From NCBI RefSeq assembly GCF_003675325.1, contig NZ_CP033073.1, forward strand, positions 3,038,001-3,102,000: a DNA stretch of 64,000 bases. The letters are read 5' to 3'. The position numbers were made by a program, and so were the translations under genes. This DNA is from Streptomyces dangxiongensis. Lineage in GTDB: Bacteria; Actinomycetota; Actinomycetes; Streptomycetales; Streptomycetaceae. This document shows positions 35,904-57,453 of the stretch, piece by piece. The stretch's first letter is position 1; each line of letters opens with the position of its first letter. The notes under the pieces are model-generated. The model searched no databases. It was given only the letters and a program-made list of their open reading frames with translations, and was not told the DNA's origin.

Positions 35904-37139
35904 GTGCCCGCACCGAAGAGGACCGGCCGGCGACCCCTGCTGGTGACCTCCGCCACCCTGCTGTCCCTGTCCGTCACCGCGCCGGCCGCCCTCGCCGCGC
36001 CGGTTCCCCGACCGAGCCCGACGGCCACCCCGCCGGCCCGGATGTCCACCCTGGGCGGCGTCCGGCTGGGGCAGCCCGGCACCCAGGTCAACCTCGCCCC
36101 GGGCGTGCCCGTGCTGCCCAAGGACCTCACCGCCCGGTCCTGGATCGTCTCGGACGCCGAGTCGGGTGAGGTGCTGGCCGCGCACAACGCCCACTGGCGG
36201 CTGCCCCCGGCGAGCACACTGAAGATGCTGTTCGCCGACACCGTGCTGCCCCGCTTCCCCAAGGGGACCCGTCACACGGTCGTCACGTCGGACCTCGCGG
36301 GCATGGGCGTCGGCTCCAGTGTGGTCGGGATGCGGGAAGGGCACAGCTACACCGTCCACGACCTGTGGCTCGGGGTGTTCCTGCGCTCGGGCAACGACGC
36401 GGTGCGCACCCTGTCCGCGATGAGCGGCGGCGTCGCGCAGACCGTGCGGGACATGCAGGAGCACGCCGGGGAACTCCAGGCCCTGGACACCCACGTGGTC
36501 TCCCCCGACGGCTACGACGCGCCGGGGCAGGTGTCCTCGGCGTACGACCTGACGCTGTTCGCCCGGTCCGGGCTCCAGAAGAAGGACTTCCGCGAGTACT
36601 GCTCGACCGTGCGGGCGACGTTCGGGTCCGCCACGATCCAGAACACCAACCGGCTGCTGAGCGGAGACACCGACGTCCCCGTCTACCCGGGGATCGCCGG
36701 TGTGAAGAACGGCAACACCACGCACGCGGGTGCCACGCTCACCGCGGTCGCCGAGCGGGGCGGCAAGGTGCTGCTGGTCACGGTGATGAATCCGGAGAAG
36801 CACGAGCACAACGAGGTCTACAAGGAGGGCGCGAAGCTCCTCGACTGGGGTTTCCGGGCAGCCGGCAAGGTCAACGCGGTGGGCGAGCTGGTGCCGCCGA
36901 AGAGCGCCGTGCCGGCCTCCGGGCAGCCGGATGCCGGCGCGTCCCCCGCGCAGGCCGCCGGGACCGGCGGATCCGGTTCGCGGCCGGTGGCGAGCGCCCC
37001 CACCGGTTCGGGTGCCGGCGGCGCGGGGGTCGCCCTGGCCGTCGCGGGCGGTCTGCTGGTGCTGCTCTGCGGCGGGGTGTTCCTGGTCAACCGCCGGTGG
37101 CCGCTGCCCGATCTGATGCGGCGCCGGGCACGTCACTGA
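35904..37139 (+). CDS. D-alanyl-D-alanine carboxypeptidase-like protein (S11 family)
   Basis: Membrane-anchored peptidoglycan carboxypeptidase (PBP5-like), about 411 residues. Signal peptide (LLVTSATLLSLSVTAPAALA), then the serine-peptidase core with PPASTLKML (SxxK nucleophile), RSGNDAV (SxN) and VKNGNTTHAG (K[TN]G motif with Asn in place of Thr). A Pro/Gly/Ser stalk and one C-terminal helix (VALAVAGGLLVLLCGGVFLV) with a basic tail anchor it outward. GTG at 35904. The 3' end overlaps the convergent BrkB-like gene by 53 bases. It probably trims terminal D-Ala from pentapeptides. Confidence 0.9.
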   Translation: MPAPKRTGRRPLLVTSATLLSLSVTAPAALAAPVPRPSPTATPPARMSTLGGVRLGQPGTQVNLAPGVPVLPKDLTARSWIVSDAESGEVLAAHNAHWRLPPASTLKMLFADTVLPRFPKGTRHTVVTSDLAGMGVGSSVVGMREGHSYTVHDLWLGVFLRSGNDAVRTLSAMSGGVAQTVRDMQEHAGELQALDTHVVSPDGYDAPGQVSSAYDLTLFARSGLQKKDFREYCSTVRATFGSATIQNTNRLLSGDTDVPVYPGIAGVKNGNTTHAGATLTAVAERGGKVLLVTVMNPEKHEHNEVYKEGAKLLDWGFRAAGKVNAVGELVPPKSAVPASGQPDAGASPAQAAGTGGSGSRPVASAPTGSGAGGAGVALAVAGGLLVLLCGGVFLVNRRWPLPDLMRRRARH

Positions 37140-54061: not shown

Positions 54062-55582
54062 TCAGCCGGCGAACCAGCGGACCGGCTTCGGCGCCAGGTT
54101 CTGGTAGACGTGCTTGGTCTCGCGGTACTCGGCGAGCCCGGCGGGGCCGAGTTCGCGGCCGGTGCCGCTCCTGCCGAAGCCGCCCCACTCCGCCTGCGGC
54201 AGGTAGGGGTGGAAGTCGTTGATCCAGACGGTGCCGTGGCGCAGGCGGGCGGCGACGCGCCGGGCGCGGCCGGGGTCGATGGTCCAGACGGCGCCGGCGA
54301 GGCCGTACTCGGTGTCGTTGGCGAGGAACACGGCCTCCTCCTCCGTCCGGAAGGTCTCGACGGTGAGGACCGGGCCGAAGACCTCCTCGCGGACGACCTT
54401 CATCTCGCGGTGGCAGGCGTCGAGGACGGTCGGCTCGTAGAAGTAACCGGTCTCCGGGCGGGCCGGCGACGGTGCGGGCCGCTTCCCTCCGCAGCGCAGC
54501 ACCGCACCCTCCGCGAGCGCGGAGGCGACGTACGACTCGGTCTTGGCGCGCTGCTGCTCGGAGACGAGCGGGCCGCACTCGACGCCGTCCTCGGTGCCGC
54601 GGCCCAGGCGGATTTTCGTGGCGCGGCGGGCGAGTTCGGCTACGAAGCGCTCGCGGACCGACTCCTCGACGATGAGGCGGGCGCCGGCCGAGCAGACCTG
54701 GCCACTGTGGATGAAGGCCGCGTTGAGGGCCTGGTCGACGGCGGTGTCGAAGCCCTCCTCGGTGGCGCAGGCGTCCGCGAAGACGACGTTGGGGTTCTTG
54801 CCGCCGAGTTCCAGGGCGACCTTCTTGACGGTGGGCGCCGCGGCCTGGGCGACCTTGGTGCCGCTGGCCAGGCCGCCGGTGAAGGAGACGAGGTCGACGC
54901 CGGGGTGTTCGGCGAGCCGGGCGCCGACGGTGTGGCCGGGGCCGGTGACGAGGTTGGCGACGCCCTCCGGCAGTCCGGCCTCGGCCAGCAGTCCGACCAG
55001 CGCGACGGTGGTCATCGGGGTGATCTCGCTGGGCTTGATCACGAAGGTGTTGCCGGCGGCGAGCGCCGGGGCGATCTTCCAGCTCGCCTGGAGGAGCGGG
55101 TAGTTCCACGGGGTGATCAGCGCGCAGACGCCGACCGGCTCGTGGACGACCACGCTGTGGATGCCGGGCGAGCCCGCGTCGACGACCCGGCCGGGTGCCT
55201 CGGCGGCGACCAGGTCGGCGAAGTAGCGGAAGGCGTCGGCGACGCAGTCGATGTCGACGCGGCCCTCCTCGACGGTCTTGCCCGCGTCCCGGCTCTCCAG
55301 CAGGCCGAGTTCCTCGCGGTCGCGGACGAGGAGGTCGGCGACGCGGCGCAGCAGGGCGGCGCGGTCGGCGACCGGGGTGCGCGGCCAGGGGCCGTGGTCG
55401 AAGGCCTGCCGGGCGGCGGCGACCGCACGTTCGGCGTCCTTCTCGTCGCCCTCCGCGACCACGGCGAAGGGCCGGGCGTCCGCGGGGTCGAGGATCTCGC
55501 GGGTCGCGCCGGAGATCGCTTCCAGCCACTCGCCGCCCGCGTGGATGGTCGCCTGAGGGTGTCGTTCCGTTCTGTCCGCCAT
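54062..55582 (-). CDS. betB: Betaine aldehyde dehydrogenase
   Basis: NAD(P)-dependent aldehyde dehydrogenase of 506 residues converting betaine aldehyde to glycine betaine. Motifs: VCALITPWNYPLLQASWKIA, FVIKPSEITP, SFTGGLASGTKVAQ, VALELGGKNPNVVFADA (general-base Glu) and NAAFIHSGQVCSAGARL (catalytic Cys). ATG at 55582. It is the first gene of the operon betB-betA-ATPase-permease-binding protein. Specificity for betaine aldehyde is from context. Confidence 0.92.
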   Translation of the reverse strand: MADRTERHPQATIHAGGEWLEAISGATREILDPADARPFAVVAEGDEKDAERAVAAARQAFDHGPWPRTPVADRAALLRRVADLLVRDREELGLLESRDAGKTVEEGRVDIDCVADAFRYFADLVAAEAPGRVVDAGSPGIHSVVVHEPVGVCALITPWNYPLLQASWKIAPALAAGNTFVIKPSEITPMTTVALVGLLAEAGLPEGVANLVTGPGHTVGARLAEHPGVDLVSFTGGLASGTKVAQAAAPTVKKVALELGGKNPNVVFADACATEEGFDTAVDQALNAAFIHSGQVCSAGARLIVEESVRERFVAELARRATKIRLGRGTEDGVECGPLVSEQQRAKTESYVASALAEGAVLRCGGKRPAPSPARPETGYFYEPTVLDACHREMKVVREEVFGPVLTVETFRTEEEAVFLANDTEYGLAGAVWTIDPGRARRVAARLRHGTVWINDFHPYLPQAEWGGFGRSGTGRELGPAGLAEYRETKHVYQNLAPKPVRWFAG

Positions 55583-56055: not shown

Positions 56056-56058
56056 CGA

Positions 56059-56095
56059 CGAGGTCCCCTCCCGCTCACCGCGGAAGGGGACCTCG
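56059..56095 (-). terminator. Intrinsic terminator directly after the tRNA
   Basis: AGGGGACCTCG (56085-56095) and CGAGGTCCCCT (56059-56069) are perfect 11-bp arms, with inner GCGG/CCGC pairs and a short loop. On the minus strand the hairpin is followed by TCGTTTTGG, a short T run. It starts five bases after the tRNA CCA end, so the tRNA is transcribed as its own unit. Confidence 0.9.
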
Positions 56096-56099
56096 TGTG

Positions 56100-56172
56100 T
56101 GGAGCGCCGGGCAGGCCTTGCACCTGCATCTCCCCGCAGGAAGCGGGGCGCCTTTCCTTGGACCACCAACGC
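56100..56172 (-). tRNA. Unusual tRNA-Gly (anticodon UCC)
   Basis: 73 bases including encoded CCA fold as a complete cloverleaf. The acceptor stem GCGTTGG/CCGGCGC has two G-U pairs. The D arm is GTC/GGC with loop CAAGGAAA. The anticodon stem CCCCG/CGGGG encloses loop CTTCCTG (anticodon TCC). The variable loop is AGAT, and the T stem GCAGG/CCTGC encloses loop TGCAAGG. Glycine identity features are all there: G1-C72, C2-G71, U73, C35 and C36. Oddities: G at position 55 instead of the near-universal U, U37 instead of a purine, G38, and only a 3-bp D stem. It lies 78 bases after mdh with a candidate promoter between. Confidence 0.85.
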
Positions 56173-56212
56173 ATCACCTGGTGCCGGATTCCCGGCGGTC
56201 GGTGCGTGATCA

Positions 56213-56218
56213 ACTATA
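56213..56218 (-). promoter_or_regulatory. Candidate -10 element for the tRNA
   Basis: TATAGT on the minus strand, 41 bases upstream of the tRNA 5' end, in an otherwise G/C-rich gap after mdh. It would start transcription near 56206. No good -35 hexamer is evident at 16-18 bases. Confidence 0.45.
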
Positions 56219-56249: not shown

Positions 56250-57329
<1,080 letters not shown>

Positions 57330-57396
57330 CTATCGCGCATCCGGCATGCGAGACGTACGGGACCGTGTGGCTCAGCCCACAGGGTTCACGGGCGTG

Positions 57397-57438
57397 CCCG
57401 TCACCGTGCCCGTCGCCGGGGACGGGCACGGTGACGGG
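57397..57438. terminator. Perfect 18-bp hairpin upstream of mdh
   Basis: CCCGTCACCGTGCCCGTC (57397-57414) and its exact complement (57421-57438) flank a 6-base loop. It sits between the HTH-DUF2690 stop and the mdh start, close behind another terminator. No T tract on the minus-strand exit side. It may be a second terminator insulating mdh, or structure in the mdh leader. Confidence 0.7.
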
Positions 57439-57453
57439 GCCGGCGGGCGCGTG

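Follow-up and report, generated by a model that had tools for sequence, protein, structure and literature searches.

Glycine tRNAs that do not take part in protein synthesis are known already from the staphylococci. In the non-proteinogenic tRNA-Gly of S. aureus, A49-U65 and A51-U63 replace G49-U65 and G51-C63, an exchange that marks these weak EF-Tu binders, and G18G19 is also missing, according to the sections of the source on which we draw (PMC4052509). The same sections describe as somewhat unclear, in most instances, how an aminoacyl-tRNA is kept out of translation for the benefit of cell-wall synthesis (PMC4052509). Bacterial glycine identity, in turn, is ascribed in the part of the literature cited here to U73, G1-C72, C2-G71, G3-C70, C35 and C36, and the identity elements of the Thermus GlyRS include C50-G64 and G10 (PMC9976931).

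Here we have analyzed a stretch of 64,000 nucleotides from Streptomyces dangxiongensis (the window), which contains a tRNA-Gly(UCC) gene of unusual structure. The shape of this tRNA suggests a molecule that is loaded with glycine and used outside the ribosome, and that may supply glycine to some non-protein pathway. The reading that we favor, and that we consider reasonably probable from sequence data, is that of a stand-alone and dispersed glycine tRNA of the Streptomycetaceae that would be glycylated, evade EF-Tu, take no part in decoding and provide its glycine for a non-ribosomal transfer.

A tRNA-Gly gene flanked by promoter-like and terminator-like elements

The locus and its neighbors comprise the following features:

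56250..57239, minus strand: upstream ORF, which we take from its sequence to be the malate dehydrogenase (mdh) gene, 77 bases from the tRNA
56213..56218, minus strand: -10-like TATAGT, then a TGATC common to many copies (sequence of copies)
56175..56204, minus strand: leader hairpin, between the -10-like box and the tRNA (fold)
56100..56172, minus strand: non-canonical tRNA-Gly(UCC) gene with encoded CCA (ARAGORN; Rfam RF00005)
56103-56172, minus strand: tRNA body, with the CCA at 56100-56102
56139..56141, minus strand: anticodon UCC in the loop CUUCCUG; C32-G38 pairing possible, the loop then having 5 nt (sequence, fold)
56116..56122, minus strand: T loop UGCAAGG, with G55 at 56121 replacing U55 (sequence)
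56058..56096, minus strand: terminator-like hairpin of 39 bases, then TTTT at 56055-56052 (sequence, fold)
54062..55582, minus strand: downstream ORF, presumably aldehyde dehydrogenase-like (betB-type) judging from its sequence

The original prediction of a complete cloverleaf with the glycine identity elements was borne out by ARAGORN, by Rfam and by the sequence itself. ARAGORN called a tRNA-Gly(tcc) at 56100-56172 on the minus strand, RF00005 scored 35.8 bits over 56103-56172 (the gathering score in Rfam is 29 bits), and G1-C72, C2-G71, G3-C70, U73, C35 and C36 are present in the window copy. Following the minus strand, the mdh stop at 56250 is succeeded by TATAGT (56218-56213), the leader hairpin (56204-56175), the tRNA, the second hairpin and the TTTT tract, and the fold of the whole transcript has a z of -3.4, beating 200 out of 200 shuffles. 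We infer from the sequence that the unit is transcribed. The short hairpin followed by a T run, which had been presented as a terminator, is found at 56058-56096 plus TTTT, and 99% of 97 non-redundant copies fold at this place with z < -2 (65% for canonical tRNAs). A generic scan, which requires five T in eight bases, scored no terminator at 56058-56096; besides, reading the sequence revealed no good -35 at the window unit, and a generic consensus scan found no complete sigma-70 site upstream of the tRNA.

A second copy, 97% identical and 128 kb away, is present in the window's genome (the two copies score 35.8 and 37.3 bits with the Rfam tRNA model), together with normal Gly-GCC, Gly-CCC and Gly-UCC tRNAs. 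The arrangement of mdh and tRNA seen in the window occurs in two of the 40 relatives examined (G016 and G020). Comparison with empty sites at mdh showed no clean junction, the DNA beyond mdh being too divergent among relatives. Two other elements of the window deserve mention: a near-perfect long inverted repeat (GCCCGTCACCGTGCCCGTC ...) upstream of mdh, at 57396-57439, visible solely through an Rfam match below threshold, and an ARAGORN call of tRNA-Ala(cgc) on the plus strand at 36945-37028, which is absent from the genome-wide Rfam tRNA search and is probably a false positive.

Departures from the normal tRNAs of the host

The four peculiarities originally pointed out (G55, U37, G38 and a D stem of 3 bp) are all present in the window sequence. 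The D stem consists of G10-C25, U11-G24 and C12-G23, with C13 and A22 unpaired; the anticodon loop is CUUCCUG, with U37 and G38; and the T loop reads TGCAAGG, so residue 55 is a G. As a comparison set we used 46 distinct ARAGORN tRNA sequences from stretches of the window's genome, a set that represents part of its tRNA genes and in which some entries show a single tRNA twice, once including its CCA and once lacking it. The T loop contains TTC in each of the 46. Residue 37 is A in 36 of them and G in the other 10, hence a pyrimidine in none, and C32-G38 occurs in a single one. The canonical loop, with a purine at 37 and without a Watson-Crick pair between 32 and 38, is thus not what the window copy has (U37 plus C32-G38). 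Regarding the T stem, the normal glycine tRNAs of the host (Gly-UCC, Gly-CCC and Gly-GCC) have G51-C63 and G49.U65.

A disturbed contact between the D and T loops had also been proposed, and this holds in part. The G18-U55 contact is gone, but G18G19 and C56 are kept, and therefore this contact alone is lost and the rest of the D/T-loop interaction stays. With G18G19, C56 and U54-A58 retained, the elbow may be largely normal, which counts against the reading that we favor.

Occurrence in chromosomes and plasmids

Using BLAST at E <= 0.001, we found a match to the tRNA in 63 of 121 Streptomyces genomes. Other genomes yielded a small number of short, incomplete hits. With R1, a covariance model derived from 32 copies, and a count threshold of 60 bits, we obtained 105 matches in 62 of the 121 genomes, the window's own included; the 105 contain one E-type relative (L281 in genome G073). 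More than one match was present in 23 genomes, with a maximum of six; in genome G091, which has six, two pairs occupy mirrored positions near the ends of the chromosome. Those R1 matches of 46-55 bits that were read turned out to be type D (see below), another odd tRNA-Gly or a partial copy. Carriers have larger genomes than non-carriers (9.15 versus 7.96 Mb, p = 2e-7). That the gene is absent from about half of the genomes, and that carriers are simply larger, is a further point against the favored reading.

On plasmids, the tRNA was found at 137 places in 71 records, 69 from Streptomyces and 2 from Streptantibioticus. The S. clavuligerus plasmid records, among those listed, have 4 places each, with one having 8. 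No phage record gave a match, and a phage origin was rejected on this basis. An exact-pattern scan of named genomes returned at least 120 stretches, and 80 out of 80 among the matches listed were from Streptomyces. Of 246 genomes sampled across the class, 22 belong to the genus, and 15 of these scored at least 79 bits; none of the other 224 did, the best among the matches listed being 54.3 bits (R1 matches outside the family include 54.3 and 51.2 bits). Finally, in a sample of 150 genomes of the family, the tRNA is carried by two genomes of genus g7 (98.1 and 100.9 bits) and by one of genus g6 (77.5 bits); two more hits in g7, scoring 61.5 and 63.7 bits, represent other types.

Part of this tRNA family escapes the standard tools. 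ARAGORN made no tRNA-Gly call at the copies of, for instance, L219, L222, L226 and L236, and Rfam, with E up to 0.1, reported no copy in five further loci (L222, L229, L241, L073 and L158). The silence of the Rfam model at these five loci also weighs against the favored reading.

Frozen acceptor and T arms, variable anticodon arm

We compared 187 loci; incomplete copies, and those identical to another in both leader and tRNA, had been dropped beforehand from this set, as from those of 189, 173 and 162 loci. For 112 of the 187, the stretches were found by a pattern that fixes almost the entire D arm, a portion of the 5' anticodon stem and all of the anticodon loop, and therefore conservation of the D arm and the anticodon loop is there by construction; the acceptor, the T stem and the T loop lie outside the search pattern. 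The other 75 were obtained by BLAST, with the tRNA of the window as the query, a route that yields too low a count of distant relatives.

G1-C72, C2-G71, G3-C70, U73, C74, U54 and G55 are invariant in the 187 loci, and the G55 of the original prediction is therefore conserved in every relative compared. The CA after C74 is not invariant. U37 is not universal either, since other lineages have C37 (loop CUUCCCG). The T loop starts with UGCAA in 186 loci and with UGCGA in one, with TGC at 54-56 in all 187. In the T stem, 51-63 is A-U in 186 loci and A-G in one, 49-65 is G-C in 185, G-U in one and A-C in another, and 50-64 is C-G in 178 and U-G in the other nine. GG at 18-19 is found in 74 of the 75 pattern-free loci (185 of 187 overall). 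In L059, one of the copies of the collection, a deletion affects the D arm, which fits poorly with the reading we favor.

The anticodon arm takes several forms. Type A has the loop CUUCCUG, with C32-G38 able to pair, and type A' the loop CUUCCCG; type B (L222-L224) has an anticodon stem of 5 or 6 bp with an AGCC or UGCC tetraloop, and type C (L225-L232) a 6-nt loop, CUCCAA. Among the 75 pattern-free loci, C32-G38 was seen in 64, the 6-nt loop in 8 and the tetraloop-like arm (AGCC/UGCC) in 3. The CC of the anticodon loop is kept in every non-redundant copy, in accordance with the C35 and C36 of glycine identity (PMC9976931). Judged by these sequences, the anticodon arm has left the geometry of decoding. 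With fixed acceptor and T arms next to a variable anticodon arm, what GlyRS and an aminoacyl-transferase would contact is constant and what the ribosome needs is not. A use outside translation, as initially suggested, has signs in its favor, namely A51-U63 and the anticodon arms of relatives that lack the standard 7-nt loop.

One could argue that the window copy is simply one more elongator tRNA, reading GGA codons. It formally has U33, UCC and a 7-nt loop, and ARAGORN calls it tRNA-Gly(tcc); occasional decoding is therefore possible, which also speaks against the non-decoding tRNA that we favor. On the other hand, relatives that share its body show an anticodon loop of 6 nt or an arm resembling a tetraloop, pyrimidine 37 and C32-G38 are found in 0 and 1 of the 46 host sequences, respectively, and residue 55 is a G. 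Moreover, a normal Gly-UCC gene is present, and the strong EF-Tu pair G51-C63 is absent, being A-U in 186 of 187 loci. We give the elongator reading very little credit, and for the family as a whole it is unlikely.

Conservation of the tRNA and its flanks

Orthologous copies were compared in 250 pairs from 21 locus groups; these pairs are not independent, and those with neighbors at least 97% alike were left out. Identity was 98.8% in the tRNA, 86.9% in the neighboring DNA, 79.8% in the leader, 78.0% in the terminator hairpin and 67.8% in the stretch upstream of the promoter. The tRNA was more conserved than the neighboring DNA in 250 of 250 pairs and more than the leader in 243. By this measure, the 71-nt tRNA body is under very strong purifying selection. 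A tRNA drifting like its flanks, as expected of decay or a pseudogene, is rejected by the same values (98.8% versus 67.8-86.9%).

Compensatory changes in the stems gave 18 cells changed on both sides, compared with a mean of 3.3 in shuffles (0 of 500 as high), although relatedness among sequences can by itself push such counts above those of shuffles, even where there is no structure. Further pair types amounted to 15, not above the 14.4 of the shuffles, and this is another result that does not help the favored reading. In the 97 non-redundant copies the leader folds with a mean z of -1.95, the values being -0.03 for the control stretch and -1.29 for the canonical tRNAs of the host; since these also have structured leaders, the leader hairpin is weaker as a special feature than hoped.

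These data bear on the simplest explanation, a decayed tRNA, an attachment-site remnant or a sequencing error, which would account for the low tRNA score (35.8 bits), the non-canonical T loop and the few short partial matches in other genomes. Yet orthologues are 98.8% identical against 86.9% for the DNA next to them, G55 is present in 187 of 187 loci, the stems show compensatory changes, and the leader and terminator hairpins are kept. For the family, conservation refutes decay or error, to which we assign a negligible probability.

Spread of short units

In its typical form, a copy is compact and comprises a -10 that resembles a promoter element, the leader hairpin, the tRNA body of 71 nt and a hairpin like that of a terminator. 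Copies within a genome are 96.7% identical (32 pairs) versus 88.3% between genomes (2179 pairs), the latter figure being lowered by unequal-length pairs, which were set to 75%. In G091, four loci share the unit from about 55 bases before the tRNA to 170-180 after it, and the surrounding DNA is unrelated. A discrete repeated unit of about 310 bp was found in L233, L234 and L235 of this genome and in L162, its right end being formed by an additional long inverted repeat (in the majority of copies CGGCCCGCCGTTTT ... AAACGGCGGGCCG). In L154, two units that resemble each other lie in tandem. These sequences suggest the copying of short cassettes. The commonest arrangement is between convergent genes (61 of 152 copies), as tolerated insertions would show. 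A bolder interpretation, which we put forward tentatively and hold to be possible rather than probable, is that promoter-tRNA-terminator cassettes of an undescribed kind are spreading over the chromosomes and plasmids of the Streptomycetaceae, by copying themselves or by being copied, and that their glycylated, non-decoding RNA would feed or decoy a non-ribosomal process alongside a core tRNA, type D.

A second odd glycine tRNA, type D

Type D is represented in the window's genome by one gene:

G000:C2:4147152-4147224 (L212:253-325), minus strand: type D tRNA-Gly (Rfam, 53.5 bits)

ARAGORN did not call it in this genome. Type D has a GCGGGTG-like acceptor, a D loop without GG and an irregular T stem. 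The T loop was UGCAA in 17 of the 18 copies read and UGCGA in the remaining one, with G55 and the closing pair G53-C61, and the copies read lie just upstream of a tRNA-Gly(GCC). With one type D copy as the query, BLAST gave a full-length match, 84-100% identical, in each of the 121 Streptomyces genomes, a count of BLAST matches of which a small part was read individually. A second model, R2, built for type D, scored at least 94 bits in the 22 genomes of the genus in the class sample. In the other 224 genomes, R2 gave at most 73.4 bits among the matches listed, and these matches outside the genus are presumably normal glycine tRNAs. We also detected the type D sequence in four loci of genus g7.

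Type D resembles the window type in its UGCAA T loop, G55, G53-C61 and glycine acceptor elements. It differs in being matched in 121 of 121 genomes, in lying beside tRNA-Gly(GCC) where read, in lacking the D-loop GG and in its irregular T stem; furthermore, its acceptor stem resembles that of a normal glycine tRNA. Should Streptomyces reserve one glycine tRNA for the cell wall, type D is the stronger candidate. C32-G38 was also seen in other unusual tRNA-Gly (UCC or CCC), those of L281, L282, L283, L322 and L323, with C33 in L282 and L283 and G55 in L281 and L322.

FemX and other possible partners

The original prediction connected the tRNA with the glycine bridge of the peptidoglycan, as a dedicated donor for FemX that would deliver glycine to lipid- or UDP-linked precursors. 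Several observations agree with such a role. A51-U63 is the weak-EF-Tu signature seen in staphylococci, and both FemX and VanK draw on aminoacyl-tRNAs in S. coelicolor, as stated in the excerpt cited (PMC4052509). The glycine identity set is kept, and carriers have slightly more FemAB genes than non-carriers (3.60 versus 3.00, p = 0.027) before correction for genome size. However, FemAB proteins are encoded in 121 of 121 genomes and the tRNA in 62 of 121, and once genome size is accounted for the association with FemAB number disappears (residual means 0.03 versus -0.03, p = 0.74). These statistics correct for genome size, not for phylogeny, and the counts cover one Pfam family, so a special FemAB subfamily might yet be linked to the tRNA. 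Besides, type D, matched in 121 of 121 genomes, could do the job, and G18G19 is kept in the window type. These comparisons give the link to FemX no specific support: for the window's tRNA type this role is possible but unsupported, and we consider it improbable.

Regarding other partners, a link to PEARL or lantibiotic dehydratases was rejected, PF04738 being found in 40 of 62 carriers and 43 of 59 non-carriers (Fisher p = 0.34). There is no constant neighbor gene: in families obtained by coarse clustering of ORFs from a custom script, the two largest are present at 17 and 12 of 162 loci and another at 4, and we take the first to be tsaD-like and the last to be mdh from their sequences. Four annotated plasmid loci that we inspected share no product. 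With the commonest family at just 17 of 162 loci, the reading we favor has no partner gene to point to.

The lack of a constant neighbor family also speaks against a decoy or sensor, that is, an RNA that would titrate a toxin, acetyltransferase or nuclease acting on Gly-tRNA, or report glycine charging. The accessory, dispersed and multicopy nature of the gene is in line with this possibility, as are the frozen acceptor and T arm next to a variable anticodon arm, and an arms race would agree with the way in which copy number varies on chromosomes and plasmids. In addition, the toxin TacT acetylates Gly-tRNA-Gly through U73 and G71, according to the part of the source cited (PMC9976931). We regard a decoy or sensor as an outside chance.

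A model for glycine delivery outside the ribosome

According to the reading that we favor, the RNA would be transcribed and would then go through RNase P and 3' processing, after which CCA would be added and the dimeric GlyRS would carry out glycylation. The dimeric-type GlyRS (TIGR00389) gave two matched stretches in each of the 121 genomes, as from one gene; there is no sign of a second GlyRS, and the matches per genome fit a single gene. The residue U73 is an antideterminant for D-aminoacyl-tRNA deacylase, as given in the excerpt cited, and would help to spare the tRNA from this enzyme (PMC9976931). EF-Tu would capture the charged tRNA weakly and no decoding would follow. With this predicted weak binding and no decoding, the glycine would stay free for a non-ribosomal glycyl transfer and be delivered to a non-ribosomal acceptor. 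Since we are dealing with an accessory gene present in multiple copies, glycylation of an accessory kind (tailoring of a metabolite, of the envelope or of a protein) is likelier than the universal peptidoglycan bridge.

As a separate observation on glycine tRNA genes, DasR of S. coelicolor binds at a tRNA-Gly gene upstream of SCO3679 and also upstream of glyS, in the section of the source cited, and these sites make a tie between glycine tRNA supply and amino-sugar metabolism possible (PMC4398421).

The tRNA family points to a new glycine-using step in Streptomyces. In these antibiotic producers, nature offers variants of a glycine tRNA that has seemingly dropped decoding and kept what charging needs; with an anticodon arm that varies and acceptor and T arms that are frozen, its separation from translation is directly testable in Streptomyces.

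Comparison with known systems

In the portions of the open-licence literature consulted, we found no description of a dispersed, multicopy and plasmid-borne tRNA-Gly family with a dismantled anticodon arm. Streptomyces does have consumers of Gly-tRNA outside translation, such as DhpK and BD-12 Orf11, FemX-like proteins of antibiotic clusters for which the excerpt cited names no dedicated tRNA (PMC12945691). The window type, for its part, has no constant neighbor family. The 'tRNA-Other' of Bacillus cereus is likewise a predicted pseudo-tRNA outside translation and next to accessory DNA; it is not presented as a glycine tRNA family in the text available to us, and the comparison is by description.

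A further close system is the non-proteinogenic tRNA-Gly of staphylococci, whose isoacceptors donate glycine to the cell wall through FemXAB, and the likeness that had been proposed is partial. Following the published sections on which we rely, both have the glycine identity elements, A51-U63 (186 of 187 loci in our set) and extra copies beside normal glycine tRNAs. The Streptomyces type keeps G18G19 and has G49-C65 instead of A49-U65, the latter being also a point against the reading that we favor, and since neither A49-U65 nor the loss of G18G19 was found, we place it outside the staphylococcal family. Unlike the staphylococcal tRNAs, it occurs as dispersed single-gene units on the chromosome and on plasmids in about half of the sampled genomes, and its anticodon arm is remodelled.
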